This document shows positions 10,870 to 46,940 of a stretch of DNA of 49,199 bases, piece after piece. The DNA comes from an uncultured Sphingomonas sp. (GTDB lineage Bacteria > Pseudomonadota > Alphaproteobacteria > Sphingomonadales > Sphingomonadaceae): NCBI GenBank assembly GCA_913775315.1, contig CAJYIX010000041.1, forward strand, positions 1 to 49,199. The letters are read 5' to 3'. The position numbers and the translations under genes are program-made. The notes beneath the pieces are model-generated. The model ran no database searches and was not told the origin of the DNA. It was given only the letters and a program-made list of their open reading frames with translations. Numbering within the stretch: the stretch's first letter is position 1; the number at the start of each line of letters is the position of its first letter.

Positions 10870-11835
10870 ATGGCCGACAGCAGCGACCTTCTCGACGCGA
10901 TGGAGGCCCGTTCGCAGCGGCGGGCCGACCGCCGCGCCTTCTTCAATGCCTTCAGCACCGCTTCGGCGATCGCGGGCGGCTTCGTTCTGACCGCAGGGGT
11001 GTCGCCCGCTGCGGCGCAGACGTCGACGATCACCGACGGCGACATCCTGAACTTCGCGCTGAACCTCGAATATCTCGAGGCGCAGTTCTACCTTTATGCC
11101 GCGACCGGCGCGGGGCTGCCGACCACCAGCCTGTCGGGTACCGGCACAGCCGGCGCAGCAACCGGCGGACGGCGCGTCAATTTCACCGACCCCGTTGTCG
11201 CTCGCTATGCGCAGGAGATTGCCGCGGACGAGCGGGCGCATGTCGACTTTCTGCGCACCGCGATCGGCAACACGGCCGTCGCACAGCCCGCAATCGACAT
11301 CAGCGCCGATCCGAACGGTGCGTTTTCGAACGCAGCGCGCGCGGCCGGGCTGATCGGCGCGGGCGCGTCGTTCGACCCCTATGCCAGCGACGAGAACTTC
11401 CTTCTCGCCGCCTTCATCTTCGAGGACGTAGGCGTCACCGCCTATAAGGGCGCATCGCCGCTGGTCAGCAACAAGACCTTCCTCGAGGCGGCGGCGGGCA
11501 TCCTCGCGGTCGAGGCGTATCACGCCGCGATCGTGCGCACGACGCTCTATGCCAAGGGCATGACCACCCCCGCGCTGATCGACGCGACCGAGGCGATCTC
11601 GAACGCGCGCGACAGCCTCGACGGGACGAGCGACCTCGACCAGGGCGTGCGGGCCAGCGGTACCGGCAATGCGACGACGAGCAACATCGTGCCGCTCGAC
11701 GCCGACGGCCTCGCCTACAGCCGCACCGCGGGACAGGTGCTCAACATCGTCTACCTGAACCGGGCGGCGGTGACGGGCGGCGGGTTCTTCCCGAACGGCG
11801 TCAACGGCACGCTGCGCATGAGCGCGGCGAACTGA
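10870..11835 (+). CDS. Ferritin_2 (desiccation-related) domain protein, paralogue A
   Basis: 321 residues. The N-terminus has [10 protein letters not shown] (residues 17-26) before a hydrophobic stretch ending SPAAAQ, a weak twin-arginine-like export signal. The ferritin-like four-helix domain starts at [21 protein letters not shown]; its Glu residues ([22 protein letters not shown]) are candidate metal ligands. The family includes plant desiccation protein PCC13-62 relatives, and function in bacteria is not established. A Shine-Dalgarno-like GGGAG lies ~10 nt upstream. It is followed 32 bp later by a close paralogue, indicating tandem duplication. Confidence 0.85.
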
Positions 11836-11867
11836 TCCAGCAATACGCTTCCGAACGGGAGGACGAC

Positions 11868-12860
11868 ATGAGCCAGACCGACCAGCTATCCCAGATTCTC
11901 GACGCCTGCGACCATCGCCGCGAGGAGCGCCGCCGTTTCCTGCGCACCGCCGGCACCGCCTCCGCCGCGGTGGCGGGGGCGTCGCTGCTCGCCGCGTGCG
12001 GCGGCGGCAGCAAGAACGACTTCCAGCCGATCATCCAGCCGACGCCCACGCCTACGCCGGCCGCGCTGACCGACGCGGACGTGCTCAACTTCGCGCTCAA
12101 CCTCGAATATCTCGAGGCGCAATTCTACTCGTTCGCGGCGTTCGGCACGGGCCTGCCCGCCAACCAGTTGACTGGCACCGGCACGCAGGGCGGCGTCACC
12201 GGCGGGCGGGCGGTCAATTTCACCGATCCGCTGGTGCGCCAATATGCGCGAGAGATCGCCAATGACGAGATCGCGCACGTCGCGTTCCTGCGCCGCAATC
12301 TCGGCGCCAGTGCGGTGGCGCAGCCCGCGCTCGACATCGGCACCGACCCCAACGGTGCCTTTTCCTCGGCCGCGCGCGCGGCCGGCCTGATCGGCGCGGG
12401 CGCGTCGTTCGATCCCTATGCCAGCGACGAAAATTTCCTGCTCGGCGCGTTCATCTTCGAGGATGTGGGCGTCACCGCCTACAAGGGTGCATCGGTGCTC
12501 ATCACCAACAAGGGGTTCCTGGAGGCGGCCGCCGGCATCCTCGCCGCCGAAGCCTATCACGCCGGCCTCGTGCGCACCGTCCTCTATCGAAAGGGCGTCA
12601 ACACGACGGCGCTGATCGACGCGACGGAGGCGATCTCGAACGCGCGCGACAGCCTCGACGGGACCAGCGACCTCGACCAGGGCGTGCGCCCGAACGGCAA
12701 TGCGTCCAACATCGTGCCGACCGACGGCTCGGGCGTCGCCTATAGCCGGTCGGCGGGACAGGTGCTCAACATCGCCTATCTCAACAAGCTGGCGACCGAT
12801 CGCGGCGGGTTCTTCCCCGCCGGCGTCAACGGCAACATCCGGCTGAGCGCCGCCAACTGA
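11868..12860 (+). CDS. Ferritin_2 domain lipoprotein, paralogue B
   Basis: 330 residues. The export signal contains [13 protein letters not shown] (twin-arginine type) and ends in a lipobox LLAAC with Cys44, followed by GGG. It is therefore predicted to be a lipoprotein, unlike paralogue A, which lacks the Cys. From [17 protein letters not shown] to the C-terminus (GNIRLSAAN) the sequence tracks paralogue A almost block for block, including [12 protein letters not shown] and [20 protein letters not shown]. The same Glu/His metal-ligand candidates are conserved. GGGAGGACGAC upstream is a strong ribosome-binding site. The pair probably places one soluble and one membrane-anchored version in the periplasm. 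Confidence 0.87.
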
Positions 12861-15529: not shown

Positions 15530-16583
15530 TCAGGCGAGGCTGTTGCCGTAGCCGATGACGATGGTGGCGAGGACGAGGATACCGATGCCGCTCCACACCG
15601 CCGCGCGAACCCGCCCGCTCGCCGCCTTCCACTCGCGGAAGGCGAACCCCCAGGGCGTGCCGAAGATGATGATCGACGCCATGTGCAGCGTCCAGCTCGA
15701 GAAGCCGAGGCTGCCCATCTGGCTCTCGCCCATCGAATAGAAGAAGAACTGGAAGTACCAGGTCGTCCCGGCCAGCGCCGACAGGAGATAGTTGGGGAGA
15801 AGCGCCGCCCCCGCCGCCTCGCCGGCCGATCCACTGGCTGGCGCTGCGATTGCGGGCGATCAGGATCGCGCACCAGATCGCATTGGTGACGAGGCCCCCG
15901 GCCATGACGAGACAGAGGATCGGCAGCCCGGTCCAGAGCGGCCCGGTGCCGGCGGCGGCCGACAGCGCCTTGATCGGCTCGCCCGCCGCCAGCCCGAACG
16001 CGAAGCAGGAGGACATGACGCCCGAGAAGATCGCGACGGCAAGGCCCTTGCGAAAGTCGAACTCGGCGACGGCGGCGGCCTTCTGTTCCGGCGACAGGCT
16101 CGCATCCTTGCGCGCGCCCGCCATCGCGACGACGGCGATACCGAGCAGCGTCACCGCCAGCCCGATCAGGATGACGTTGCCGCTGGCGGTGCCCAGCAGT
16201 TTCGGTCCGAACTCGCCGGTGAAAATGGGCGGGATCAGCGTGCCGAACACCGTGCACAGCCCCAGCACAACCGCCATGCCGAGCGACAGGCCGAGATAGC
16301 GCATGGTGAGGCCATAGGTGAGCCCGCCCAGCCCCCAGAGCATCCCGAACACGAACGGCCACAGGATCGCGCCGGCGGGCGCCGCACCCAGCACCCCGAG
16401 CAGATCGTTCGTCTGGAGCGAGGCGAAGAACCACGGCGCGATCGCCCAGGAAAAGATGCCGCCGGTTAGCCAGTAGATCTCCCAGCTCCACCGCTTCACG
16501 CCGCGATAGGGGACGTAGAAGCTCGCCGAGGCGAAGCCGCCCAGCCAGTGATAGAGGACGCCGATCAGCGGATTGGGGGTCAT
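15530..16583 (-). pseudogene. rhaT: L-rhamnose/H+ symporter (RhaT family), frameshifted
   Basis: The frame from the ATG at 16583 encodes about 250 residues of a RhaT-like multi-helix transporter (YHWLGGFASASFYVPYRGVK, GMLWGLGGLTYGLTMRYLG). It then leaves frame near 15801-15830, where it reads RRGGGGGASPQL. The C-terminal part continues in another frame (LLPNYLLSALAGTTWYFQFF, MGESQMGSLGFSSWTLHMAS) to a stop at 15530. One extra base, perhaps in the G5 run, accounts for it. RhaT imports L-rhamnose with protons. The ATG overlaps the upstream lactonase stop (ATGA), so it ends a tightly packed operon. Sequencing error is possible but other genes of this operon are also damaged. Confidence 0.85.
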
Positions 16584-17477
16584 AGCGAGAGGCCCAGGCG
16601 ATAGAGGCGGTTGGCGTTGCCGGCGAACATCGCCCGCTGCTCGTCCTCGGTGAAATCGGCGATCACGGCGGCGCAGGCGGAAAGCTGCGCGTCGAAGGTG
16701 CCGAAGAGCTTGTCGGTCGGAAAGTCGCTGGCGACCATCACCCGGTCGGCCCGAAACCAGTCGATCGCAGACAGAATGATCCCGCGCGCATGATCCGCAT
16801 CGAACGACCGGCGGGTGAAGCCGAAGCCGGACAGCTTGATCGCGACGTGCGGGATCGCGGCGAGCGCGCGCATTCCCGCGCGCCACTCGGTCTCCTCTCC
16901 CGGCACCATCATGCCGGCGTGGTTGACCATCACCGGCGTGTCGGGATACCGCGCGATCAGCCGTGCGAGCGCGGGTAACTGGCCGGGATAGGCCTGGAGA
17001 TCGAAGCTCAGGTTATGCGCGGCCAGGCGGGCGTATCCCGCCTGCCACGCTTCATCCTGCGTCACGTCGCGCGAGGTATAGCTGCGCCGCGGGTCGGGGT
17101 GCCAGTTGACGATATGCCGGATGCCGCGGACGTTCCTGTGCGCGGCATGGGCGGCGAGCAGCGCGTCGAGCTTCGGGCCGGCCAGATCGGCGAACGCGAC
17201 GATCGCGCTCGGCAGGCCGGTTTGATCGGCCAGCCCCTGTAGCCACACGGTCTCGTCCAGCGCCTGTGCCGGGTCGGCGCCGGCATCGACATGGACGATC
17301 CCGCGCACGTCCCATCCGTGCCGCATCGGCGCTATAGTCGGCAAGGCCGTAATCGCGGGCGATTCGCTCGACCGACCCGTTGGGGCCGTCATCGGCAAAG
17401 GGCGGCGTCAGCCACGGGTAGCGGATGCGCGAGAGGTCCCAGAGGTGGACGTGCGCATCGACGAAGGGCAGCGACAC
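16580..17477 (-). pseudogene. L-rhamnonolactonase-like amidohydrolase (COG3618), frameshifted
   Basis: Starts at a GTG (17477) with SLPFVDAHVHLWDLSRIRYPW, the metal-binding HxH motif of amidohydrolase_2 proteins. After DYGLADYSADAAR the frame is lost near 17325. It resumes one base away with WDVRGIVHVDAGADP and runs to the stop at 16580, including NHAGMM and VMVASDFPTDKLFG with later metal/catalytic residues. An extra A in CGGATGGG explains the shift. COG3618 enzymes hydrolyse sugar lactones such as L-rhamnono- or L-fucono-lactone. The gene lies between the SDR and rhaT in one overlapping operon, which supports the L-rhamnose assignment. Confidence 0.82.
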
Positions 17478-17487
17478 CGCCGGCGCC

Positions 17488-18232
17488 CTAATAGGTCGTG
17501 CGCCCGCCCGACGTGTCGGACGTCGAGGCGGTGGTGAAGCTGCATTCCTCGCTCGCCATGAAGCAGACCATCGCCGCGCTCTCGGCCACGTCGCCAAGGC
17601 GTCCCATGGGGATCTTGCCGCGCATGTACGCGATCTGCTCGGGCGGAAGCTGCGCGAGGATCGGACTCTCGAACGTTGCGGGGGGTGAGCGCGTTAGCGA
17701 TCACGCCCTTGCCCGCCAGTTCCTTGCCCAGCGACTTGGTGAAGCCGATCACCCCCGCCTTGGACGCCGAATAGGCGCTGGCATTGGGATTGCCCTCCTT
17801 GCCCGCCACCGACGACACGTTGACGATCCGGCCGTATCCGCCCGCCAGCATCAGCGGCACGACCGCGCGGTTGCACAGGAACACGCCGTCGAGGTTGATC
17901 GCCAGCGTGCGCCGCCACCCCTCGAACCCGAAATCGTGAACGGGCACCGTCGGCCCGGTGATCCCGGCCGAGCCGACGAGGATGTCGACCCGGCCCAGCG
18001 CCGCCTCGCTCGCGGTGGCGGCGGCGTCGACCGCATCCTCGTCCGACACGTCGACGCGGACGCCGTGCGCGCCGAGCCGCTCGCACACCGCGTCCAGCGC
18101 GTCGCTCATGTCCCAGAGCGACACCGCGCCGCCCTCCGCCTCGATCCGTTCGGCAACGGCAAGGCCGAGGCCCGAGGCGCCGCCGGTGACGATCGCGGTG
18201 CGGCCCGCGAACCGGCCCGCAAAGACGCTCAT
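17488..18232 (-). pseudogene. SDR, L-2-keto-3-deoxyrhamnonate 4-dehydrogenase-like, frameshifted
   Basis: The N-terminal Rossmann motif GGASGLGLAVAERI, NAG equivalent SAGITG, catalytic Ser (NVSSVAG) and YSASK are intact. After VIANALTP the frame shifts in a run of six Gs (17680-17685, C6 on the coding strand). With one fewer C, the frame continues ATFESPILAQLPPEQIAYMR and ends in SDTSGGRTTY at 17488. The C-terminal residues match the SDR group that oxidises C4 of 2-keto-3-deoxy-L-rhamnonate or -fuconate. Its start overlaps the FAH-like stop (ATGA). A homopolymer lesion is the kind most easily produced by sequencing error or slippage, so this one alone is weak evidence of decay. Confidence 0.83.
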
Positions 18233-18943
18233 CCGAGCACCGCGTCGCCAAGGTGCCGCCAGGCGACCACCTGCTGGTGCTGTTCGCCGAGCCCCGCGAT
18301 GCCGAGCCGCATCGTGTCGCCGGTCTTGAGGTAGGTGGCGTTCGGCTTCTTGCCCTCGCCGACGCCCGGCGGGGTGCCAGTAATCATCACGTCGCCGGGG
18401 TAGAGGGTGATGAAGCGGCTGACATAGGCGATCAGTTTGGCGACGCCGAAGATCATCGTCCGCGTATTGCCGGTCTGCATCCGCTCGCCATTCACGTCGA
18501 GGAACATGTCGAGGCCCTGCGGGTCGCCGACCTCGTCGGGCGTCACCAGCCAGGGGCCGAGCGGGCAGAAGCTGTCATGCCCCTTGCCCTTCGACCATTG
18601 CGAGCCGCGCTGCTTCTGGTCGAAGCGTTCGGACACGTCGTTGGCGATCGCATAGCCCGCGACGTAGGCGAGCGCGTCGGCCTCCTCGACATGACGCGCG
18701 GTCTTGCCGATGACGATGGCGAGCTCGACTTCCCAGTCGGTATGCGTCGAACCCTTCGGGATCATCACCTCGTCGTTCGGGCCGGTCAGCAACGACAGCG
18801 CCTTCATGAACATCATCGGTTCGGCCGGGATCGGCAGGTTCGATTCGATCGCGTGATCCTCGTAATTGAGGCTGATCGCGACGATCTTGCCGATGCCCTT
18901 GACCGGCACGCCGAGCCGCGGCGTGCCCTCCACCAGCGGCAGC
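18229..18943 (-). pseudogene. FAH-family 2,4-diketo-3-deoxy-L-rhamnonate hydrolase, 5' deleted
   Basis: About 234 residues remain from [20 protein letters not shown], which in relatives follows an N-terminal segment of ~60 residues that is missing here. The retained core has GLNYEDH-like [12 protein letters not shown], the metal/catalytic acidic residues in [19 protein letters not shown] and TGTPPGVGEGKKP. FAH-family LRA6-type enzymes cleave L-2,4-diketo-3-deoxyrhamnonate to pyruvate and L-lactate. The sequence immediately upstream belongs to rhmD in a different frame, so the gene lost its own start. A GTG at 18933 might initiate a shortened protein. Could also act on the fuconate analogue. 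Confidence 0.82.
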
Positions 18944-19129
18944 CAGCGTGCCGAGCACGTTGATGCCGAAGCTCTGCCGCGACTGGCGGTATTTGGGATA
19001 GCGGCTCATCGGCGTGGCAATGTGGTCGTCGATCAAATGGCCCGCCCCCTGGTCGTGATAGTCGGCGCCGCCGCCGCGGACGGTGAAGGCGCGGACATGG
19101 GCAATCCGGAGGAACGAAATCGCGGCCAT
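18944..19129 (-). pseudogene. rhmD: L-rhamnonate dehydratase, N-terminal fragment only
   Basis: From the ATG at 19129 about 62 codons are recognisable: [20 protein letters not shown], then [14 protein letters not shown] and [14 protein letters not shown]. These match the N-terminus of enolase-superfamily L-rhamnonate dehydratase (E. coli RhmD/YfaW has [20 protein letters not shown] and [14 protein letters not shown], from memory). Homology stops at about 18944, where FAH-family sequence begins in another frame. The barrel domain with the catalytic acid, base and Mg ligands (over 300 residues) is absent. The start is preceded by GAGAAGA. This is the first gene after the divergent promoter and its loss should block the pathway. 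Confidence 0.88.
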
Positions 19130-19145
19130 CAAATCTTCTCTACGC

Positions 19146-19174
19146 TTTACATTCCCATATTATGGGATTATATT
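19146..19174 (+). promoter_or_regulatory. iclR promoter with palindromic operator in the spacer
   Basis: TTTACA (19146-19151), a 17-bp spacer and TATATT (19169-19174) form a good sigma-70 promoter for iclR. The palindrome ATTCCCATATTATGGGATT (19151-19169; CCCATA-T-TATGGG core) exactly occupies the spacer. On the minus strand a TATAAT (19172-19167) abuts it and could serve the rhmD operon. One bound IclR dimer could therefore control both directions. An additional ATATT-TCGC-AATAT inverted repeat lies at 19170-19183. Confidence 0.7.
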
Positions 19175-19181
19175 TCGCAAT

Positions 19182-19982
19182 ATGGAACGTAATGCCGTGT
19201 TCGCCGATGCTTTGCAAGTCGCCAGCGGCGGCGGCAGCCAGACGCTGCTGCGCGGCCTGGCGATGCTCGACGCGGTCGGCGGGGAGACGGTGAGGCTCGC
19301 CGACCTGTCGCTGCGGATGGGGCTCAGCCGTTCGACCACGCACCGCCTTGCCAACGCGCTGGTCGATACCGGCTTCCTGACCTTTCGTAGCCGCGATGGC
19401 TATCGCCTCGGGCCCAAGCTGATGCAGCTCGGCTTCCTCGCACAGGCGCAGGCCGACCTCGTTCAGGTCGCGCGCCCACATCTGGAGGCGCTGGCGGCGG
19501 CGTGCGAGGATACGGTGCATCTCGGCCGGCGCGAGGGCGACGTGGCACTCTATCTCGACAAGCTGCCCGGCCGCCGCCGGATCGAGATTTCGAGCCGCAT
19601 CGGCGACCGCCATCCGCTGACCTCGACCGGCCTCGGCAAGGCGCTGATGCTCGACGACCCGCACACCGGCTGGCGCGGCCAGTTCGACGCCGACCGTGTA
19701 CGCGGCGCGCCGCCCGCCGATTTCGATCGCTGGACCGCGCAGATGCAGGGCTATGTCGCCGCGGGCCACGCCTTCGACCTTGAGGAGAACGAGGACGCGA
19801 TCCGCTGCGTCGCGGCGCCCGTGCGCGATGCCGCTGGCCGGATCGCCGGCGCGATCAGCGTGTCGAGCGCGGCGCAATATATGGACGACGCGCGAATGGC
19901 CGCGCTGGCCGACACGGTCCGCGACGCGGCGCAGGCGATCGGCCGCGACCTAGGCTGGAACCCCGAAAAAGAGAGAGGCTGA
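19182..19982 (+). CDS. IclR-family transcriptional regulator of the rhamnose locus
   Basis: 266 residues from the ATG at 19182. N-terminal winged helix (~15-75, with VRLADLSLRMGLSRSTTHRL) and a C-terminal IclR effector domain with VHLGRREGDVALYLDKLPG and STGLGKALM. No ribosome-binding site precedes the ATG, and the -10 box ends 7 nt upstream, so the message may be leaderless. Upstream in-frame sequence from 19083 is not used because it overlaps the promoter. IclR proteins bind small acids such as ketodeoxy-sugar acids. The stop overlaps the SDR start by one base (TGATG). Confidence 0.9.
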   Translation: MERNAVFADALQVASGGGSQTLLRGLAMLDAVGGETVRLADLSLRMGLSRSTTHRLANALVDTGFLTFRSRDGYRLGPKLMQLGFLAQAQADLVQVARPHLEALAAACEDTVHLGRREGDVALYLDKLPGRRRIEISSRIGDRHPLTSTGLGKALMLDDPHTGWRGQFDADRVRGAPPADFDRWTAQMQGYVAAGHAFDLEENEDAIRCVAAPVRDAAGRIAGAISVSSAAQYMDDARMAALADTVRDAAQAIGRDLGWNPEKERG

Positions 19983-20746
19983 TGCGACTGCTTGAAGGAA
20001 AGACCGTGCTCGTGACCGGCGCATCGACCGGCATCGGCCGCGCCGCGGCGATCGGCGCGGCGAAGCACGGGGCGAACGTGGCGATCAACTACGCTTCAAG
20101 CGCCGACAAGGCGGAAAGCTGCGTCGCGGAGATCGAGGCGGCGGGCGGCCGCGCGATCGCGGTGCAGGGCGACGTGGCGTTGGCCGAAACCGCCACCGCC
20201 TTCGTCGACGCGGCGAAGGCGGCGTTCGGGCGGATCGACGTGATGGTGTCGAACGCGGGCATCTGCCCCTTTCACAGCTTCCTCGACATGCCGGCCGAGA
20301 CGCTGGAGCGCACGATGCGCGTCAACCTCCACGGCGCCTATTACATGTGCCAGGCGGCGGCGCGGGCGATGGTGGCACAGGGCGAGGGCGGCGCGATCGT
20401 CGCGGTCTCCTCGATCTCCGCGCTGGTCGGCGGCGAGTATCAGACGCACTACACGCCGACCAAGGCGGGGGTACATTCGCTTATGCAGTCGGCGGCGATC
20501 GCGCTCGGCCGGCACGGCATCCGCTGCAATTCGGTGCTGCCGGGGACGATCCTGACCGAGATCAACAAGGACGACCTTGCCGATCAGGAAAAGCGCGACC
20601 GCATGACCGCGCGCATTCCGCTCGGCCGGCTGGGCAAGGCGGAGGATTTGGCAGGGCCAATCGTCTTTCTCGCCAGCGACATGGCCACCTATGTGACCGG
20701 CGCCGCGCTGCTGGTCGACGGCGGCGCGTACGTGAACCTCCAGTGA
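19982..20746 (+). CDS. L-rhamnose 1-dehydrogenase (SDR family)
   Basis: 254 residues. [12 protein letters not shown] (cofactor), [14 protein letters not shown], catalytic Ser in [23 protein letters not shown] with Tyr/Lys in YTPTK, and the C-terminal [15 protein letters not shown]. These segments closely resemble NAD(P)-dependent L-rhamnose dehydrogenase (RhaDH) of Azotobacter, as I recall it. The enzyme oxidises L-rhamnose to L-rhamnono-lactone in the cytoplasm. It is intact and overlaps both its neighbours (iclR by 1 bp, lldD by 4 bp), forming a three-gene operon divergent from the rest of the pathway. Confidence 0.88.
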
Positions 20747-21888
20747 TCCGCCGCGCCGCCTCCGCCATCGACTATCGCGAGCTTGCGCGCCGCCGCCTGC
20801 CGCCGTTCCTGTTCGAATATATCGATGGCGGCAGCTATGCCGAGGTGACGCTGCGCCGCAATGTCGAAGCGCTGGAGGCGGTGGCGCTGCGCCAACGGGT
20901 GCTGACCGGCGTCGACGGCGTCGACCTGTCGAGCAGTCTGTTCGGGGAGGCGACCGCCCTGCCCGTCGCACTCGCCCCGGTCGGTCTCGCCGGCATGAAT
21001 GCCCGCCGCGGCGAAGTGCAAGCCGCACGCGCGGCGGCGGCGGCGGGGATACCCTTCTGCCTCTCGACCGTCTCCTGCTGTCCGCTGTCAGAGGTCGCGC
21101 CGGCCAGTCCCCGCCCGCTCTGGTTCCAGCTCTACATGATCCGCGACCGCGGCTTCATGCGTGACCTGCTGGCACAGGCGCGGGCGGCGAACTGCTCGGT
21201 CCTCGTCTTCACCGTCGACATGCCCGTCCCCGGCTCGCGCTATCGGGATATCCATTCGGGGCTGTCGGGCGCGAGCGGGCTACGGGCCGACATGCGTCGC
21301 TGGTGGCAGGCAGTTCGCCATCCCGGCTGGGCGTGGGACGTCGGCATTCACGGCCGCCCGCACCAGCTCGGCAACGTCGCGCCCGTGCTCGGCAAGGATA
21401 GCGGGCTGGAGGATTTCCTCGGCTGGATGCGCGGCAATTTCGACGCCAGCGTCACCTGGGCCGATCTCGACTTCATCCGCGCGGAATGGGACGGCCCGCT
21501 GGTCATCAAGGGCGTGCTCGACCCCGAGGATGCGCGCGCCGCCGCGTCGCTGGGCGCGGACGGCATCGTCGTCTCCAACCATGGTGGCCGCCAGCTCGAC
21601 GGCGTGCCGGCGACGGCCCAGGCGCTGCCGCCGATCGCCGCGGCGGTGGGCGACCGCCTGACCGTGCTGGCCGACGGCGGCGTGCGCTCGGGCCTCGACG
21701 TCGTGCGGATGCTGGCGCTGGGGGCGCAGGGCGTGCTGCTCGGCCGCGCCTGGGCCTATGCGCTGTCAGCGCGGGGCGAGGCGGGGGTCGCGCACCTCCT
21801 CGACCTCATTGCCGCGGAGATGCGCGTCGCGATGACGCTGACCGGGCGGCGCAGCGTCGCGGAGATCGACCGGACCGTTCTGGTCTGA
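20743..21888 (+). CDS. lldD: FMN-dependent L-lactate dehydrogenase
   Basis: 381 residues from the GTG at 20743 that overlaps the SDR stop (GTGA). FMN-binding and catalytic segments of the alpha-hydroxyacid oxidase family are present: [47 protein letters not shown], and [14 protein letters not shown] with the catalytic His near residue 280 and Arg three residues later. LldD oxidises L-lactate to pyruvate, passing electrons to the respiratory chain. Its place in a rhamnose operon fits the hydrolytic route that yields L-lactate. It ends 12 bp before the convergent GH106 gene. Confidence 0.92.
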
Positions 21889-21900
21889 ACGGGCCGGGCA

Positions 21901-24900
21901 CTACCGCCCGCCGCGATCGCTCGACATTAGCACGACCGGGCCGATCAGCCCCGCCGGGCGGAGGGCTGCGTCCGCGCGATAGGTCGGCAGCGACGTCCAT
22001 GTCACCTTGGCCGCCCCCGGCTGCGCATCGCCGATCAGGCGATTGACCCAGGTGTTCGCGACGCGCACCTCCAGCACGTTGCGCCCGGGGCGCAACGACC
22101 GGCCGAGATCGACGCGATACGGCGCATGCCACGCATTGCCGACGACGGCGCCGTTGACGCGAACCTCCGCTAAGTCGCCGACGCGGCCGAGGTCGAGCGT
22201 CATCGCCTCATGCCGCCCCGCGGGCAGGTCGACGACCCGGCGATAGGTCGCGACGCCCGAGAAATGGCGGATCCGCGCGTCCGCGTTCGTGTCGAGCGCG
22301 GCCAGCCGGTCGAGCTTCGCCTCGGCGGGTGCGCCGCGGCCCGGCTCGAACGCCACCGTCCAGCCGTCGTCCAGCGCCATGACCGAGCGCAGCGGTCCCG
22401 GCGCGGACGGCGCATCCGCACCGAACACGACGAACACGGCCCCTTCCGCCTCGAGCTCGAGGTCGACGATCGTCCGGTCCCCGTCGCGTCGGAACGCGAC
22501 CGCTTCAAGGCGCCCGGTTTCGGCATGCCACAGCGTGGGCGTGCCCGCGGCGCGAAAGCTCGCTTCGATCCGCTCGGCGCGGTCGCGGCGGTTCGACAGG
22601 AAATAGAGGTCGCGGGCGCCGTCACGGCGATGCTGGAACAGCAGGTCCCCGCCCGACAGCCGCACATCGGCACCGATCCCGGCACCTTCGAGCGCGGCGT
22701 CGAGATCGTCGCCCGCGATCGGCGTCAGTCGCGGCGCCACCTTCGCGATCAGGCGGCGGACGGCGGCGGGATCGTCGGCGAGCGCGGGCGAGTCCTTCGG
22801 CGCCCGGCCGATCACGGGGATCCCGGCGGCAAGGATCGCATCGACCCTCTCCAGCGTCGCCAGCGTCATCCGCTCGCTGCTGCCGCCAAGGTGGAGCGCG
22901 CGGTAACGGGCGTCGTCCGCGGAGACGAGCTCGCGACCTTCGATCCGCAGCTCGGCGAGGATCGCGGCATTGACCATGTCGAAACCGTGCCGCTTCGGCA
23001 GGTCGCCCGGCACCTTGTTCGCGAACAGCGCGGTGATCGGCGCCTCCTCGCCATAGAACCAGGCGACGTCCGCGACGTGGCGCCCCTGCTGGAGGAGGAA
23101 GCCGGTCCGCGCCATGTAGTCGACCCAGGGCCGCGCCATCGTTGCCCAGCTGTCGAAGCGGTTGAAATACTGGCCGAACACCGCCAGGCTGAGCCCCGGC
23201 TTCTTGCCCTCGACCGGATTGTGGACCGAGGTATGGACGACCGGCCGGTTGATGCCGAGCGCGAACTCGAGGTCGATAACGCGCTTCAAATCGGCGGGCG
23301 CGAAGGCCCAGGGGGCCATAAACGCGGTCATGCTCTCCGCCGCGACATATCGCTTGCCATGGACGTGCGCGACCGACGCGGCGCCGATCGCGTCGCCGAT
23401 CAGCGTCGGGCGCGGCGCCGATCCGCGCGGCCACGTCCACATCGCCGCCATCGGCACGTCGGCATAGGCGCGCATCGCCATGTCGTCGCCAAGCTGCGGC
23501 CGCTGATCCTCCAGCGCCTCGCCGTAGACCTTGAGCCCGGCGGCGTGCGCGACCTCGGCCACGGTCGCGTAATGCTCGCTCGAAACCAGGTCGGCGAGCG
23601 TCCGGCGCCAGTCGTAGAGAAACGCATCGGTGCGTGCGCGGCTTTCGATCACCGCGCCGGTCAGCGTCGGCAGCCAGGGCGTCGGGTCATAGCCGCGCAA
23701 GTGGCGGAACTGTTCGATCAGCCGCTGCGTCCAGTTCGCCGGGCCTGCCTCGATACTGTCGGTCAGCAGCGCGCGCACGCCGCGCTCGCCGAGCATCCCC
23801 GCCCCCGCCGCGGCGCGGTAGCGCGTCAGATAGGTGTCGAGATACCGGCGGACCGCGGCGCCATCCATCTTATCGACTTCAAGGCCCGTCGATTCGGGCG
23901 TGGCCGGATGGTTGGTCTTGCCGATCAGCGACCAGCCGAGCCGCGCGATGCGCCAGCGGCTGCCCTTGGGCGGGGTCCAGTCGAGCGTGCCGTCGGGACG
24001 CAGGCGCGCGGTTAGGTCGATGACCTTGGCGGCCGGGGCTGCCGCCCCCTCCGGCACGCGCCCGTCGATCGCGTGATAGTCGAGCACGGTCGAGAAGCCC
24101 GCCTTGGCCTCCCCCCGGTCGACGCGAGGCTCGCCATAGAGGCGGAAGGTGCCGATCGCGACCGTGGTGACGGGCGGCGCGGACGGGAAGATGCCGTCCA
24201 TCGCCGCGCCGGGTGCGGGCGGCTCCATCGGCGGGCGCTTCGGCCCGGTATTGGGACCAAGCACGACGCGAAAGCGCCGCGCGGTGACGGGCGCGAACGC
24301 GGCGGTCGTCGGCACCCCGGTCAGCGGCAGTTTCGCCACCTCGACCCATTGCCCGTCCCGCTCCGCCTGCAACACCGGCAGATAGGCCGGGTCGCCGAAC
24401 GGCGGGATAGCGTCGGGCATGTAGAAGGTAGCCGCCTCGACCCGGACGGGCCGCGCATAGGCATAGGTGACCGCCGGCGGGTTCGCCGGATCGCCCTTGC
24501 CGATCGAAACGGTGGTCGCCTCGTCGGCGTCGATCAGTGCCGCCACGTCGATCCCCGCCTCGACCTGCGGAGCGGGAAGCGCCTGCCCGGTGACGGGCCA
24601 GGCGATGACGCGCACGTCGCCATAGGCCGCAGGCTTGGCGGCGGGCCGTCCCGGCTCGAAACCGGCCAGCGGGTCGCTGAAGGGGGCGTTGCCAAACGCA
24701 CCGGTGACGCGCGGCGGCGCGGGCAGCGGCCCGGTCAACGGTCGCCCGCCATCGACGTCGACTTGCGCCCAGACGAGCTTCTTCATCCCGTCGGCGGGCG
24801 GCACCCATGGCCCGCCGGTCTCACTCCACCCCGCCGACGACGCGATGGCGAGTTCGAGGCCGAGCCGGTCCGCCGTCCGTGCTGCCAGCGAAAACGCGCG

Positions 24901-25191
24901 CTGCCATTCGGGCGACATATAGACGACGCGCTTGTCGACGACCTGTTGCGCCATCAGCGAGGCGTCGAAGTTCTGGACCCCGCCCAGCCCCACGTCCTTC
25001 ATCCACTGAAGGTCGCGGACGATCCCCTCTTCGCTGATATTGCCGTTGAGCCAGTGCCACCAGGTGCGCGGCCGGGCCTCTGCCGGCGGATCGCGAAAGC
25101 CGTCGGCCAGCGGATCGGCGGGCGCGCTCTGGGGCAGCGCGGGACTTGCGAGCGTAAGCGCGAGCGCGCTGCCAACTATCAGACGACGCAT
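21901..25191 (-). CDS. rhaM: GH106 alpha-L-rhamnosidase
   Basis: 1096 residues from the ATG at 25191 (an upstream TTG is ignored), with a Sec signal peptide (MRRLIVGSALALTLASPALPQ). Early motif PRTWWHWLNGNISEEGIVRD and LASSAGWSETGGPWV-like IASSAGWSETGGPWV are typical of GH106, as is LTDSIEAGPANWT. The C-terminal ~120 residues form a galactose-binding-like sandwich (VRVNGAVVGNAWHAPYRVDL). GH106 includes RhaM of Sphingomonas paucimobilis, which removes terminal rhamnose from plant glycosides. Predicted periplasmic. The gene is intact although its operon partners are damaged. Symbol assigned by family, not by identity. Confidence 0.9.
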   Translation of the reverse strand: MRRLIVGSALALTLASPALPQSAPADPLADGFRDPPAEARPRTWWHWLNGNISEEGIVRDLQWMKDVGLGGVQNFDASLMAQQVVDKRVVYMSPEWQRAFSLAARTADRLGLELAIASSAGWSETGGPWVPPADGMKKLVWAQVDVDGGRPLTGPLPAPPRVTGAFGNAPFSDPLAGFEPGRPAAKPAAYGDVRVIAWPVTGQALPAPQVEAGIDVAALIDADEATTVSIGKGDPANPPAVTYAYARPVRVEAATFYMPDAIPPFGDPAYLPVLQAERDGQWVEVAKLPLTGVPTTAAFAPVTARRFRVVLGPNTGPKRPPMEPPAPGAAMDGIFPSAPPVTTVAIGTFRLYGEPRVDRGEAKAGFSTVLDYHAIDGRVPEGAAAPAAKVIDLTARLRPDGTLDWTPPKGSRWRIARLGWSLIGKTNHPATPESTGLEVDKMDGAAVRRYLDTYLTRYRAAAGAGMLGERGVRALLTDSIEAGPANWTQRLIEQFRHLRGYDPTPWLPTLTGAVIESRARTDAFLYDWRRTLADLVSSEHYATVAEVAHAAGLKVYGEALEDQRPQLGDDMAMRAYADVPMAAMWTWPRGSAPRPTLIGDAIGAASVAHVHGKRYVAAESMTAFMAPWAFAPADLKRVIDLEFALGINRPVVHTSVHNPVEGKKPGLSLAVFGQYFNRFDSWATMARPWVDYMARTGFLLQQGRHVADVAWFYGEEAPITALFANKVPGDLPKRHGFDMVNAAILAELRIEGRELVSADDARYRALHLGGSSERMTLATLERVDAILAAGIPVIGRAPKDSPALADDPAAVRRLIAKVAPRLTPIAGDDLDAALEGAGIGADVRLSGGDLLFQHRRDGARDLYFLSNRRDRAERIEASFRAAGTPTLWHAETGRLEAVAFRRDGDRTIVDLELEAEGAVFVVFGADAPSAPGPLRSVMALDDGWTVAFEPGRGAPAEAKLDRLAALDTNADARIRHFSGVATYRRVVDLPAGRHEAMTLDLGRVGDLAEVRVNGAVVGNAWHAPYRVDLGRSLRPGRNVLEVRVANTWVNRLIGDAQPGAAKVTWTSLPTYRADAALRPAGLIGPVVLMSSDRGGR

Positions 25192-25207
25192 GCCCAACCC
25201 CCCGAAA

Positions 25208-25664
25208 TTATTGGATTCCCGGTTCGCATATGGCGACCTTCACCGCAACCGTGGTGACGATCGCACCAAGCGCAGCCGTAGAGCGTCTTGCCGATCAGCA
25301 CCGCGCCCCGATCGATACCGACGCCATCGGCGAACAGCAGCGCCTGAACGCCCCATGCCACCAGCGACACCGCCACGGCGACGAGCATCGCGCGCACGGC
25401 CGCGGGTCGCGGTATCGAAACGGCCCGCATCACCGCCCCGCGCGGCAGCCCGCCGCGCCGCATCCGCTGTCGCCCGAGGAGCGTGGGGACGAGCGTCGCC
25501 ATGAACGCGACCGCGAAACTCTGGACCGGCGCATCGACGACTAGCGCCGCACCGGCTACCTCGCGCGCCCCGCCGAACAGCAGGAAGGCGAACACTCCAC
25601 TCAGCACACCGTTGATGACCGCGCCGACCGCCGCCTCGCGCGCGATCAGCACGGACCGGCTCAC
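25208..25664 (-). pseudogene. Small four-helix membrane protein, frameshifted near 3' end
   Basis: A GTG at 25664 overlaps the GH1 stop (GTGA). Four hydrophobic segments are visible (AVINGVLSGVFAFLLFGG, FAVAFMATLVPTLL, MLVAVAVSLVAWGVQALLF and a last one). After GKTLYG the frame reads CAWCDRHHGCG, which is not membrane-like, whereas shifting one base near 25272-25278 gives AALGAIVTTVAVKVAICEPG and a stop at 25208, 16 bp before the GH106 ATG. Loss of GC from GCGC would explain it. Function unknown. If unshifted, the product is 161 residues ending at 25179 inside GH106. Confidence 0.6.
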
Positions 25665-26967
25665 GCCGCGTTCGCCCGCGCGATCGCGCCAAGTATGCCG
25701 GCGCTGGGCTTCGCCGTCCGCCTGAACGCGGCGGGGTCGAACGCGAAAAGCCCGTGCTTGAACTTGTAGCCCGACACCCACTCGTAATTGTCGAGCAGCG
25801 ACCAGTGGACATAGCCCTGGACGGGCACCCCCTCCGCAATCGCGCGCTGGAGTTCCTTGAGCGCACCGCGGATCAGGTCGACGCGGATGCGATCGTCGGT
25901 CGCCGACACGCCGTGCTCGGTCACGATCAACGGCACGCGCGCCTGTTCGTAGGCATAGCGCGCGGCATTGGCGACGGACGGCGCATAGACCTCACCCCCG
26001 CCCTGCGTCAGCACCGCGCCCTCGGGCCGCGGCAGGCGGCCCGACGCCCCCCACAGCACCCACTCGTAATTCTGGATGCCGATGAAGTCGTCGCCGCGCG
26101 CGGCCTCCAGCCACGGGCCGTAGAGCCGCTTGCGCATCGCGTCGCGCGTGTCCGGCGCGCCCACCGCCTGATCGTCGAAGATGGCGATCGTCAGGCCAAC
26201 CGGCAGGTCGCCGCGCACCGCCTTGATCGCTTGTTTGCCCAGCCGATGCGCGGCGAGCAGCGCGGTGGTCAGGCGCGGGATGTCCGCCTGCTTGGTCGAA
26301 TTGCCGAGCGCCAGTTCCTTCACGCCCAGCGACCGCGCCGCACTGTCCAGCATCGCGCCGATCACCGGCTGGACCTGAGGCGGAAGGACGACGTCGAGGA
26401 CGGGGACGATATTGGGCTCGTTGAAGGTTATCGCATGGCTGATGCCGGCGCCCAGATGCCGCACCGCCCGGTCGCAGAACCGCGCGAACAGCGCTGGCGC
26501 CTCCTCGTTCAGCCAGCCGCCCCGCGCGGCGAACCAGCGCGGCGTGGTATAGTGGCTGAAGGTGACAAGGGGGGCGAGGCCGCGCGCGCGGCAGCCTTCG
26601 ATCATCGCCATGTGATGGTCGAGCATCGCGATCGAGAACTACCCCACCTCGGGCTCGATCCGTGCCCATTCGAGGCTGAACCTGTAGCTGTTCAGGCCAA
26701 GCCCCTTCACGAGGTCGAGGTCGGTTTCCCACAAGGCGAAGCTGTTGCACGCGTCGCCCGACTTCTCGCGAAAGATCGTCGGTTCGACATGTTCGAGCAG
26801 CCACACGTCGCTGTTGACGTTGTTCCCCTCGACCTGATGCCCTGCGGTCGCCGCGCCCCAGAGGAACCCCCTAGGAAAGCGCGCGACAGGGCCGCGCGGA
26901 CGGGCGCGGCGGCAAGCGCGACGACGCCGAGGCCGCCGGCAAGCATCGTGCGTCGGTCGATCGTCAT
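25661..26967 (-). pseudogene. GH1 beta-glucosidase, frameshift plus amber stop
   Basis: Starts at 26967 with a twin-arginine-like signal (MTIDRRTMLAGGLGVVALAA). Near 26876-26890 the frame is lost (reads AFLGGSSG) and resumes as FPRGFLWGAATAGHQVEGNN. After EWARIEPEVG a TAG (complement of 26639-26641) interrupts it; the same frame continues FSIAMLDHHMAMIEGC to the end at 25661. Both GH1 catalytic Glu residues are retained (TFNEPN and VTEHG). GH1 enzymes remove beta-linked glucose. Two independent lesions of different type make a true pseudogene likely. It overlaps the esterase stop (ATGA) upstream and the membrane gene downstream. Confidence 0.87.
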
Positions 26968-27788
26968 GCCAAATGCTCCACGAAATCGAGAATGTCGGAG
27001 GCCAGCCGCGCGTCGCTGCCGCCCAGGTGACAGGCGAGGCTGAAGTGATTGTGTCCCGCAACGACCGACAGGCGCGGCAGGCGGCCGGTCGCGGCGAAGG
27101 CGGCGTTAGCGAGTGCCAGCGTCTCCGCCTGAAAACGGTCGGGGTCATGTTCTGCACAGGCGAGCAGCATCGGCAGCCCGGCTGCGGCGATCCGAGCGGG
27201 TTCGAGCGGGGTGGTCTCGCCCAGATACGGCACGTCGCGATCCTCGGGCGCGGTCGCGCCGTAGAGGCCGGAGGGGAGCACCACCCCGCGCACCGCCGGG
27301 GGCAGCAGGCCGAGCTGCATCGCCGTCGCGACATGCACCGACCCGGCCGAGGTGCCCGCGACCAAGATCCGTGCCGGGTCGCCACCCCTGTCGGCGGCAT
27401 GGACGACCAGCCAGTCGACCGCCGCCGCCACGTCCTCGCCGCCCGAGGGCCAACGCGCATTGGGCAGCAGGCGGTAGTCCATCACCGCACCGACCAGACC
27501 CGACCGTGCCGCCCAGCGCCCGACATGCGCGTTGTAGGGATGCGCCTCGCTCGCCTTTTCGCCGCGAACAAAGCCGCCGCCATGCACCCAGAGCAGCACC
27601 GGCCGGCGCTGCGCATCCTGCGGCGCGTACACAACCATCCGCTGCCGCTCGTGCGGACCATAGGCGGCGTCCTCGATCACCGGCGCCGTCCGGTCGGTCT
27701 GCTCGTCGGCGTACATCGCCTGCACCGCCGCCAGCACATCGGGGCCGAGGCGCGTGCCGAGCGCGGCGATGGCGGCGGGGTCGTGCAT
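26964..27788 (-). CDS. Alpha/beta-hydrolase, hormone-sensitive-lipase type esterase
   Basis: 274 residues. The oxyanion-hole motif WVHGGGF (~66-72), the nucleophile elbow GTSAGS (Ser ~146) and a late His in VAGHNHFSLA identify the HSL/BD-FAE-like esterase family. No signal peptide, so cytoplasmic. Likely deacetylates or de-esterifies small glycoside-derived substrates (inference). It overlaps MBL-protein stop at its start (TGATG) and the GH1 start at its end (ATGA), so it is locked into the operon. No lesion is visible. Confidence 0.87.
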   Translation of the reverse strand: MHDPAAIAALGTRLGPDVLAAVQAMYADEQTDRTAPVIEDAAYGPHERQRMVVYAPQDAQRRPVLLWVHGGGFVRGEKASEAHPYNAHVGRWAARSGLVGAVMDYRLLPNARWPSGGEDVAAAVDWLVVHAADRGGDPARILVAGTSAGSVHVATAMQLGLLPPAVRGVVLPSGLYGATAPEDRDVPYLGETTPLEPARIAAAGLPMLLACAEHDPDRFQAETLALANAAFAATGRLPRLSVVAGHNHFSLACHLGGSDARLASDILDFVEHLA

Positions 27789-28738
27789 CAGCGGCAGCCG
27801 AGGTCGTAACTGGACAGGTCGCGCGCCAGCCCGAACGGCCCCCGATGGCTAGCCGGGATGCCCGCGCGGATCGCGGCGGCATGCTTGCCGAGCGCGCCGG
27901 GCATCGCATAGTGCGTCACGACGACGCGGCCGACGCCCGCCACCGCGGCCATCCGCCCGATCGCCTCGGGCGGCAGGTGGTGCGTCGCCAGATGCCGGCG
28001 CATGTCGGCGAGCATGCCCGGCGGCGCATCGGGCCGCCGCGCGTTGATTTCCGCTACCAGTGGGTCGAGCATGACCACCTCGAAAACGAGCAGGTCGGCC
28101 CCCTTGGCAAGCCGGTCGACCGCCGCGCTCGGCCCCGTATCGCCGGTATAGGCGATGCTGCGCCCACCCGGCTCGAACCGATAACTGAGCGAGACCCCCA
28201 CCCTGCCGCCGCGGCCGTCGTCGAAATGGCTGTTCTCGACCCCGCGCATCGTCAGGCCGCCGCCCAGATCGGTGACGCTGCCGCCCGCCACCTCGACCAC
28301 ACGCACGCCCTCGGCCGGCTGCGGCGGCGGCTTGCCGAGCGCGAAGCCGATGCGAGCGGGCGGGGCGAGCGAGGCGAGGATGCCGTCCACCATCGCCCGC
28401 GTCCCCGGCGGGCCATAAACGGTGAGGACGCCCGGAAACTGGTTCATCCAGCGCAGCCCGATCACCGCGCCCAGACCGCCCGCGTGATCCAGATGCAGGT
28501 GGCTGATGACGACGGCATCGACGCTGCCCATCGTCAGCCCCGCCCGCGCCAGTTGTCCCACCGTGCCGTCGCCCGCATCGACCAGGATGCGGCGCTCGCC
28601 CAGCGTCAGCAGGTTGACGGGCTCCGACCGCTCGATCGTCGGCGCCGGCCCGCCCGCGGTGCCGCGCGTCGTCCAGCCCATCGCGGGGCACACACCCGCC
28701 GCCGCGAGCGCAAGTGCAGCGGCGGCGAGGCCCGGCAT
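27788..28738 (-). CDS. Exported metallo-beta-lactamase-fold hydrolase
   Basis: 316 residues. The N-terminus (MPGLAAAALALAAAGVCPAM) is a signal peptide; Cys17 might act as a lipobox. The metal-binding motif SHLHLDHAGG (~80-89) and later YTGDTGPS and VVTHYAMPG provide the usual His/Asp ligands of tRNase Z/ElaC-like MBL enzymes. Substrate unknown. It begins within the TonB receptor stop (TGATG). The reading frame is intact. Confidence 0.85.
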   Translation of the reverse strand: MPGLAAAALALAAAGVCPAMGWTTRGTAGGPAPTIERSEPVNLLTLGERRILVDAGDGTVGQLARAGLTMGSVDAVVISHLHLDHAGGLGAVIGLRWMNQFPGVLTVYGPPGTRAMVDGILASLAPPARIGFALGKPPPQPAEGVRVVEVAGGSVTDLGGGLTMRGVENSHFDDGRGGRVGVSLSYRFEPGGRSIAYTGDTGPSAAVDRLAKGADLLVFEVVMLDPLVAEINARRPDAPPGMLADMRRHLATHHLPPEAIGRMAAVAGVGRVVVTHYAMPGALGKHAAAIRAGIPASHRGPFGLARDLSSYDLGCR

Positions 28739-29526
28739 CAGAAGCGGCCCGACAGCTGGACGCCGATTGTTCGCCGCCCGTCGCGCGTGTTCCAGTTCAC
28801 CGCGCCGCCCGGCGTCGTGAACGGCAGGACGATCACCGCCGACTGGAACTTGGTATCGAACAGGTTGCGCGCGAACGCTCCCACCCGCCAGCGGCCATCG
28901 GGCGCACCGATGCCGATGTTGAGGCTGACCACGTCATAGCCGGGCTGACGCGCGTAAGCTCGCCGGGATCGTAGGTCACTTCGCTACGGTGATAGTAGGT
29001 GCCCGAGGCGTCGAGCTTCAGCCGGTCGTTGATGGGGACGTCCAGATTGGCGCTCGCCTGCACGCTGTGCTTGGGCGCGCCCGACAGCGGCAGGCCCTTG
29101 GCCTGGAACAGCAGCGTCGTCGCGGTCGAACCCGGCGCATTGCACTGCGCCGCCACCGCCGCCGCGCCCTGTAGCACCGTCGAGTCCGGGCATGCCGTCA
29201 CGTAATCGGTGAAGTAGGTGTCGGAATAGGTGTAGCCGGCATTGACCGAGAAATTGCGGTTGAACCGCCACGTCCCCTCGACCTCGAACCCGGCCGCCTC
29301 GAACCCGCCGGCATTCTCGGTCAGGAACTCCAGCCCGTTGAAGACCGAGGTCTGAAGGTTGCGATACGTGTCGAAGAAGACGTTGGCGTTGAAGGTGAGA
29401 TGCCGGTCGAACAGCTGCGTCTTGGCACCCACGGTGATGTCGACGACGGTCTGCGGCTTCACCTGTACCTGGCTGCCGGTCAGCCCCGAGAAGGTGACCG
29501 TCGGCCCAAGATAGCCGCGCGCGACG
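28738..29526 (-). pseudogene. TonB-dependent receptor, 3' fragment with frameshift
   Basis: Only the C-terminal ~260 residues of a receptor barrel remain, starting at ARGYLGPTVTFSG and including VDITVGAKTQLFDRHLTFNA, FEVEGTWRFNRNFSVNAGYT and TYYHRSEVTYDPGEL. Near 28946-28955 the frame shifts; the other frame continues QPGYDVVSLNIG, then FARNLFDTKFQ, and ends in QLSGRF at 28738. The signal peptide, plug and most of the barrel are missing to the right of about 29526, where sequence from the divergent cupin gene begins. A complete receptor would have imported the glycoside for the operon's enzymes. Confidence 0.85.
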
Positions 29527-29534
29527 GTGACGCG

Positions 29535-29882
29535 ATGGTCGACATGCGCGTGATCGAGGGCGGGCGCGGGGCGGCGATGCCTGCGATCCGCCACCGCGAC
29601 ACGCACGTCTTCGCCTATATTCTGGGCGGCGCGGTCGAATGGACGATCGGCGACGAGACGCATCTGCTGACCGAGGGGGATGCGGTCAACGTGCCGGCGG
29701 GCACGCGATATGCGACGAGCATCGTCAGCGGCACCGCACGCTGGCTGCTTTGTTCGGCGAACGGCAACGGCGCGGCGCTGTGGGACGAAGGCGGCACGCC
29801 GACCGGCCGCTTCTCCCACCCGATGGAGCCTGCCGACACGCCCGTTGCTTTTCCCTCGGGGGTCGATGCCGCGATCGATTAG
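29535..29882 (+). pseudogene. Cupin-domain protein, probably 5' truncated
   Basis: 115 residues from the first ATG after the junction. The segment AIRHRDTHVFAYILGGAVEW with DETHLLTEGDAVNVPAGTRY fits the two conserved cupin motifs (His-x-Asp/His pair, then G-D-x-x-x-x-P-x-G). It resembles single-domain cupins annotated as quercetinase-like dioxygenases, but with weak confidence. No ribosome-binding site precedes the ATG, and the usual N-terminal strand(s) or signal peptide are missing. The upstream boundary coincides with the abrupt start of the TonB fragment on the other strand. It could still be a functional short cupin. Confidence 0.55.
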
Positions 29883-46386: not shown

Positions 46387-46592
46387 TGATCGAAATTGAC
46401 GACTACGCCCCTCCGTCAAACAAAGGACGAAAGATTAATTCGAAAAATCGTGTGGCGCCCGAACGCGAACGGCTTCTGAACGACGCGCGAAATCTGGTCG
46501 CGATCGGCTACAAGAAAATCAACGCAGCGTATCGGCTTAATGTCGAGTCTAAGTTGAATATAAAGGCGGAAACCTTTGCTAAGTTGATCTAG
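46383..46592 (+). CDS. Small ORF coupled to the integrase, unknown function
   Basis: 69 residues, starting with MMIEIDDYAPPSNKGRKINS at an ATG that overlaps the integrase stop. The body is basic and helical (ERERLLNDARNLVAIGYKKI, NVESKLNIKAETFAKLI). No family recognised. The size, charge and coupling to int suggest a DNA-binding accessory protein. Real coding is supported by the 4-bp overlap and the same shifted composition as the element. Confidence 0.55.
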   Translation: MMIEIDDYAPPSNKGRKINSKNRVAPERERLLNDARNLVAIGYKKINAAYRLNVESKLNIKAETFAKLI

Positions 46593-46684
46593 CCGCAATT
46601 TCTGATTTGCGGGTAATTCGATTTTCTGCCGGTCGCTCCTGTGCTTCCTACGCATTGTCTATAAGACGCTACAGGAAGTCACCC

Positions 46685-46915: not shown

Positions 46916-46940
46916 TCCAGCTTCAGACTTCGGGCACGTC

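Follow-up and report, generated by a model that had tools for sequence, protein, structure and literature searches.

We examined a contig of 49,199 bases (CAJYIX010000041.1, positions 1 to 49,199; hereafter the window) which is one of the 44 contigs in the 3.25-Mb draft genome of an uncultured Sphingomonas sp. (GCA_913775315.1; completeness 98%, contamination 3.4%). It carries a block of catabolic genes (positions 15530-29882) which consists of two joined modules, an L-rhamnose pathway and an aromatic-glycoside gene group. We found that the block has decayed, and that this decay is real, recent, private to the window genome and of an ordinary, known kind. In the closest relatives the intact locus probably serves the breakdown of an aromatic glycoside that carries rhamnose, for which a flavonoid rhamnoglucoside is the likeliest candidate.

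The closest relatives of the window's GH106 gene (94% protein identity) came from Sphingomonas yantingensis DSM 27244 (L029) and an uncultured Sphingomonas metagenome-assembled genome (MAG; L030), with further contig sequence of both used for comparison (L115 and L116 for S. yantingensis, L117 and L118 for the MAG). Both of these sister loci keep the gene order of the window and, over the overlapping parts, are colinear with it at a nucleotide identity of 92-93.5%. All 19 genes of the block were called as open frames in S. yantingensis and 18 were open in the MAG, from which the MBL-fold gene is missing; it appears cleanly excised near L030 7396-7424, where its neighbours still abut. The SDR2 gene of the MAG (L030:18124-18867) was considered as a broken gene and rejected, as its reading frame is open and only the gene call had cut it. 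Its branch-specific synonymous change was about twice that of the other genes in the set (synonymous divergence, dS, 0.24), as if it had been recombined from another lineage.

Nine disabling lesions were found in the window and none of them in either sister: six frameshifting indels of one or two bases, one amber codon and two deletions. The indels comprise a 2-base deletion near 15822 in the gene for RhaT, 1-base insertions near 17318 in an amidohydrolase gene and near 17679 in a G run of SDR2, a 2-base deletion near 25273 in the gene for a 149-residue hydrophobic protein, a 1-base deletion near 26883 in GH1 and a frameshift near 28955 in the gene for a TonB-dependent receptor. GH1 also carries the amber codon (26639-26641), where both sisters have a glutamine codon. 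Relative to the sisters, about 1.16 kb are deleted at 18943 and about 6.6 kb at 29529-29532, and the ends of both junctions have about 1 base in common and no repeat.

Taking the S. yantingensis block as reference, 13 of its 19 genes are broken or gone in the window. Nine survive in damaged or truncated form (RhaT, amidohydrolase, SDR2, FAA1, RhmD, the 149-residue protein, GH1, the TonB-dependent receptor and a bicupin), four are absent from the block (FAA2, a FAD monooxygenase (FMO), a LysR-family gene and an extradiol dioxygenase) and six are intact (IclR, LRA1, LldD, GH106, an esterase and the MBL-fold gene). By comparison, disruption was seen in 0/19 flank genes that could be compared in full on this contig and in 1/32 control genes on two other contigs of the window's genome (Fisher P = 7e-9 for 13/19 block genes versus 1/51 flank and control genes). 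The flank count leaves out a gene truncated at the left end of the window and those beyond 36241, where the S. yantingensis coverage ends. The control genes come from two of four stretches on other contigs (L126 and L128 were left out), after one gene mapped over less than 70% had been dropped; the loci L023-L028 likewise did not enter the comparison. Raw indel flags on these contigs, which marked 7/32 genes, were rejected as lesions, as tblastn upheld only one of them: a 40-base deletion near the 3' end of a circularly permuted ATP-grasp/Alpha-E gene (L125:12697-15137).

A first-pass annotation, made from the window's letters only, had already described a rhamnose locus in decay, and its list of lesions proved right: every class that it named is present when checked against the two sisters, the genes outside the block are open, and the remainder that it took to be intact is open throughout. 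The comparison with orthologous sphingomonad loci that it proposed yielded the two colinear sisters, which have none of the nine lesions. Two of its gene readings required correction. The damage at 18.2-19.1 kb falls in two genes, a FAA hydrolase and L-rhamnonate dehydratase, and the stretch 29529-29882 is what remains of the C-terminal part of a bicupin.

We then compared nonsynonymous and synonymous substitutions (N/S) in the reading frame of S. yantingensis, placing each change on the branch of the one taxon that differed from the other two; codons in which all three taxa differed at a site were dropped. Seven broken genes entered the sums; the RhmD and bicupin remnants and the MBL-fold gene, which is absent from the MAG, were left out. 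On the window branch N/S was 79/141 in the broken genes and 97/420 in the flank (odds ratio (OR) 2.43, P = 8e-7), and on the S. yantingensis branch the figures for the same sets were 53/143 and 141/494 (OR 1.30, P = 0.10). The excess on the window branch over both sisters was significant (z = 2.65, P = 0.004), and dS on this branch was alike in the broken genes (0.094) and the flank (0.086). For the remnants, N/S in the window, S. yantingensis and the MAG was 4/3, 0/5 and 0/8 in RhmD and 6/10, 12/9 and 3/8 in the bicupin. Purifying selection on the broken genes is thus relaxed in the window lineage and, if these genes have been neutral since their loss, the loss falls in about the last 8% of the window branch (1.5-15%).

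The five intact block genes other than the MBL-fold gene showed, when pooled, no significant excess of N over the sisters. The esterase alone leaned towards relaxation, its N on the window branch exceeding what constraint would predict (P = 0.045), and GH106 leaned clearly to neither side. IclR, LRA1 and LldD together had 14 N, where 15.1 would be expected under constraint and 27.9 under relaxation for 8% of the branch (P = 0.003 under relaxation). The suggestion that selection had been relaxed on one substrate holds in part: relaxation is visible, it does not visibly reach these three genes, and the supposed single rhamnose locus is not supported.

These three genes, an IclR-family regulator (19182-19982, plus strand; PF01614 and PF09339, residues 1-255 of 256 aligned), the L-rhamnose 1-dehydrogenase LRA1 (19982-20746, plus strand; the window copy scores 452.8 against a cut-off of 400 for the NF053807 equivalog) and the L-lactate dehydrogenase LldD (20743-21888, plus strand; NF033901, 589.5 versus 550), abut or overlap in one run which has kept its own upstream region. 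The window genome has no strong FMN_dh match other than LldD (421.7 bits; the next are 33.2 and 25.6, with a cut-off of 24.9), which was probably kept for L-lactate from other sources. The run may stay constrained because L-lactate oxidation would be useful without rhamnose.

This leads to an alternative which is compatible with our explanation and which we hold to be possible, with somewhat less than even confidence, namely that the block has been reduced to a useful core: selection would hold IclR, LRA1 and LldD for lactate oxidation, and perhaps for rhamnose oxidation as a source of reducing power, with the rest being shed. The intact operon, its constrained N count and the lack of a second strong FMN_dh match all favour this, and none of the seven point lesions lies in IclR, LRA1, LldD or GH106 (simulated P = 0.02, for a gene set picked post hoc). 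Against it, the total unhit length is not unusual (P = 0.14), so that survival of six open genes was rejected as evidence of selection by itself, and LRA1 may merely ride along in an overlapping operon.

Returning to the inactivated locus itself, its first module is, by gene family and equivalog models, a predicted hydrolytic, non-phosphorylative L-rhamnose pathway. On the minus strand, the pseudogene of the L-rhamnose/proton symporter RhaT (15530-16583; PF06379 in two pieces) has a sister copy which passes the NF010024 equivalog cut-off (528.6 versus 468), and its two pieces were the only matches to the RhaT profile in the whole window genome. It is followed on the same strand by the amidohydrolase pseudogene (16580-17477; PF04909), a putative L-rhamnono-lactonase (LRA2) by family only, as it scores 105 against the lactonase model NF052480, below the cut-off of 400. 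The SDR2 pseudogene (17489-18232, minus strand; PF00106), a putative L-2-keto-3-deoxyrhamnonate 4-dehydrogenase (LRA5), passed no equivalog model; in a PDB search 6d9y was third of the 4 matches at 1e-45 or better, and this has been named as the structure nearest to L-KDRDH (PMC11199699). FAA1 (18229-18943, minus strand), a predicted 2,4-didehydro-3-deoxy-L-rhamnonate hydrolase (LRA6; 525.5 in the sister against an NF053535 equivalog cut-off of 500), has lost its first 47 residues to the 1.16-kb deletion and aligns from residue 48. The junction (18943-18944) also removed most of the L-rhamnonate dehydratase RhmD (LRA3), leaving its first 63-64 of 398 residues (18944-19132, minus strand); the sister copy scores 748 against the NF011968 equivalog cut-off of 393. 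Beyond this remnant, a search of the window genome for the dehydratase found only two weak partial matches on one other contig (40% over 100 and 27% over 124 residues).

The LRA5/LRA6 branch of this pathway was reportedly described in a Sphingomonas sp. by Watanabe and Makino in 2009. Our locus resembles it in LRA1, LRA3, LRA6 and RhaT by equivalog models, in LRA5 by a near structure, in a candidate LRA2 and in LldD. It differs in that LRA3 is deleted in the window and LRA2, LRA5, LRA6 and RhaT are broken. The passing scores of LRA1 in the window and of RhaT, RhmD and LRA6 in the sister agree with the first-pass annotation's pathway to pyruvate and L-lactate, and the gene overlaps of 4 bases and 1 base which are kept in the sister coordinates agree with its formerly functional operons. 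The locus cannot be called complete, as it had been, with the dehydratase and the aromatic half gone. Among the 101 congeneric genomes sampled, including the window's own, 40 have RhmD. In two other congeneric genomes a frameshift, at a different site in each, breaks RhmD in two (G018, L143:8910-10092; G108, L144:8598-9786), which may be either decay or long-read error; the other rhamnose genes align near full length in G018, and in G108 RhaT and IclR were not found above 45% identity within a 19-kb stretch.

The second module runs in the sister on the minus strand through LysR, FMO, FAA2, the TonB-dependent receptor, the MBL-fold gene, esterase, GH1, the 149-residue protein and GH106, adjoined by the divergent extradiol dioxygenase and a quercetinase-like bicupin. 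In the window, likewise on the minus strand, the predicted GH106 alpha-L-rhamnosidase (21901-25191) has an intact frame with 1092/1092 residues aligned (PF17132, E 3e-270, 899 bits against a cut-off of 29). It is accompanied by the pseudogenes of the 149-residue protein (25208-25664), of which the sister copy had no Pfam or NCBIfam match, and of the beta-glucosidase-like GH1 (25661-26967; PF00232 in two pieces), and by the intact frames of the alpha/beta-hydrolase (esterase; 26964-27788; PF07859 and PF20434) and the MBL-fold hydrolase (27788-28738; PF12706). Of the TonB-dependent receptor the 6.6-kb deletion has left only the C-terminal third (28738-29532; PF00593), and the frameshift puts residues 526-716 and 717-788 of 788 into different frames. 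The deletion junction (29529-29532) marks the loss of the receptor's N-terminus, FAA2, FMO, LysR, the extradiol dioxygenase and most of the bicupin, of which a C-terminal piece of about 117 of 326 residues with a cupin domain is left (29529-29882, plus strand). A search with FMO across the window genome gave just one 44-residue match (E 3e-4).

In the sister the gaps from FMO to GH106 are at most about 28 bases, so the promoter presumably lies upstream of FMO or LysR. As this upstream part is deleted in the window, the open GH106, esterase and MBL-fold genes would be orphaned, cut off from the upstream part of their operon and its presumed promoter.

In the scheme that we propose for the sisters, the TonB-dependent receptor, judging from its family, would import the glycoside, from which GH106 would take off L-rhamnose and GH1 glucose. 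The aglycone may then be opened by the esterase, the FAD monooxygenase, the extradiol dioxygenase, the quercetinase-like bicupin and the FAA2 hydrolase. Rhamnose would be taken up by RhaT and converted by LRA1, LRA2, LRA3, LRA5 and LRA6 to pyruvate and L-lactate, the latter being oxidised by LldD. Between them, the two deletions and seven point lesions of the window strike the genes predicted for uptake, the lactonase, the dehydratase, the keto-acid dehydrogenase, the hydrolase, the glucosidase and the receptor, together with those for the aglycone. Neither module should therefore work, and growth on L-rhamnose has presumably been lost.

We consider that there is about an even chance that the substrate is a flavonoid rhamnoglucoside resembling rutin or naringin. 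The top PDB matches of the sister bicupin are the quercetin 2,3-dioxygenases 1y3t and 2h0v (E 1.6e-43 and 1.7e-43), which represent the bicupin YxaG of Bacillus subtilis; both cupin domains align crosswise with it, the N-terminal with the C-terminal and the reverse. The best PDB match of the window's GH106 is 6q2f (1186.8 bits, residues 18-1097), which we take to be RHA-P. In the sister locus the FAD monooxygenase lies near the glyoxalase-fold extradiol dioxygenase, both missing from the window block, as in the fde naringenin operon of Herbaspirillum seropedicae and the ifc cluster of Variovorax. The likeness to these systems extends to the cupin, the alpha/beta-hydrolase and LysR (FdeR being presumably LysR-type) and is one of gene families only. 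Unlike them, the sister locus is joined to GH106, GH1 and a TonB-dependent receptor, and unlike fde, with its Rieske protein FdeD, none of the 19 sister genes is annotated as a Rieske protein. In Massilia a Rieske gene may or may not be present, as 6 of 10 ORFs examined had no match and were probably in the wrong frame. Published work on these enzymes and clusters (PMC11069340, PMC11303751, PMC8552027, PMC6828813, PMC10653915) reports RHA-P of Novosphingobium sp. PP1Y, which belongs to GH106 like the window enzyme, to be active on flavonoid glycosides. It also describes the ifc isoflavone cluster as combining a FAD monooxygenase, a glyoxalase-fold dioxygenase, an alpha/beta hydrolase and cupins, with similarity to the fde genes.

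A number of points weigh against the explanation as a whole. The call of decay comes from assembled sequence compared with two sisters. The N/S excess comes from counts in three taxa and pooled genes, the MAG branch shows a mild excess of its own (61/170 versus 114/449 in the flank; OR 1.41, P = 0.04) and the gene for the 149-residue protein evolves fast in S. yantingensis. The share of the branch under relaxation has wide limits (0.015-0.15), and the contrast with IclR-LRA1-LldD fades at its low end. As to the substrate, where the quercetinase metal site has three His and one Glu, one domain of the sister bicupin has, by eye, H, H, D and H at the positions which we take to be those of the metal ligands and the other lacks two of them, so that, unlike YxaG, one domain seems to be without metal ligands; the window keeps a remnant only. 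The bicupin was found in 1/80 GH106 loci (the MAG's) and so is not shown to be part of the recurring group described below, with the limit that 10-kb flanks would miss the S. yantingensis copy and perhaps others. The nearest NCBIfam names for FMO are phenylpropanoid hydroxylases, and its likeness to fde lies at the level of gene families. A different sphingomonad GH106 is reported, in the same literature, to act on steroidal saponins, so membership in this family does not by itself tell the substrate.

The main rival on this question is that the glycoside is aromatic and not a flavonoid, being another phenolic or terpenoid rhamnoside, and we regard this as a serious minority possibility. The nearest models of FMO are those of 3-(3-hydroxyphenyl)propionate hydroxylase and those of the dioxygenase are catechol and homoprotocatechuate models, all matches being below cut-off except for one FMO subfamily model; the rarity of the bicupin points the same way. 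The strong solved relatives of the bicupin are, however, quercetinases.

We also asked which genes accompany GH106 elsewhere, using the best 80 of 162 relatives found, with up to 10 kb of flank on each side and neighbours counted at a minimum of 35% identity over half the query. Both FMO and FAA2 were near GH106 in 33/80 loci (28/80 at 45% identity), and together with them were found the dioxygenase (30 of 80), GH1 (29) and the esterase (29). Rarer neighbours of GH106 were the TonB-dependent receptor (10/80), LysR (9/80) and the MBL-fold gene (3/80). A search for FMO among plasmids matched 181 records. The loci with the recurring group belong to Sphingomonas, Sphingobium, Novosphingobium, Massilia and marine Gammaproteobacteria. 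RhmD was within 10 kb in just 2/80 loci, both of them the sisters, and LldD was near GH106 in two further loci. Nine other congeneric genomes had a GH106-like match (two of these weak), and eight of them also have RhmD, on another contig in seven and about 0.49 Mb away in one, although contig ends could hide some linkage. Among the genomes examined, the two modules are thus usually apart, and it is in this clade that they are joined.

This makes doubtful the reading of the first-pass annotation, in which one rhamnoside and L-rhamnose locus had GH106, GH1, esterase and the MBL-fold gene all serving rhamnose release. GH106 is indeed a rhamnosidase family and adjoins rhamnose genes in this clade, and in two loci of acidobacteria (L106 and L107) the 10-kb flanks of GH106 contain RhaT relatives (58% identity). 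However, GH106, GH1 and the esterase recur with FMO and FAA2 far more often than RhmD lies close by, and in the eight congeneric genomes with both, RhmD was not seen close to GH106, as far as contig ends allow.

That the lesions are assembly or sequencing errors in one poor stretch is very unlikely: several indels do sit in short runs or repeats of a 44-contig draft, but flank and control genes are almost free of disruption, the short junction homology argues against repeat collapse, the nonsynonymous excess on the window branch goes together with lesions of several kinds (insertions, small deletions, a stop codon and two large deletions), and dS is similar in broken genes and flank.

Outside the block, the window has a tandem pair of genes for Ferritin_2 proteins (10870-12860; about 77% DNA identity to each other), which is present in both sisters. 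At 45064-48920 a phage-type integrase is followed by an AAA/primase-like gene, and an integrated element probably has its edge here, where the contig ends.

Taken together, we tentatively suggest that the sisters hold a single locus of about 22 kb which would lead from a rhamnosylated flavonoid to pyruvate, and that it collapsed quickly in the window, sparing the operon with the sole strong lactate dehydrogenase match. Its aromatic half (FMO, dioxygenase, FAA2, esterase, GH1, GH106 and often the TonB-dependent receptor) may be a utilisation cluster, widespread in Sphingomonadales, Massilia and marine Gammaproteobacteria, that has yet to be recognised as one; no paper on it was found among the matches listed in the open-access literature. 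The three lineages form a natural experiment, with the locus open in two sisters and in early decay in one. The main interest lies in the recurring, little-described aromatic-glycoside gene group which this comparison has brought out: GH106 genes of sphingomonads often lie beside aromatic-ring genes, which offers a testable substrate for the group.

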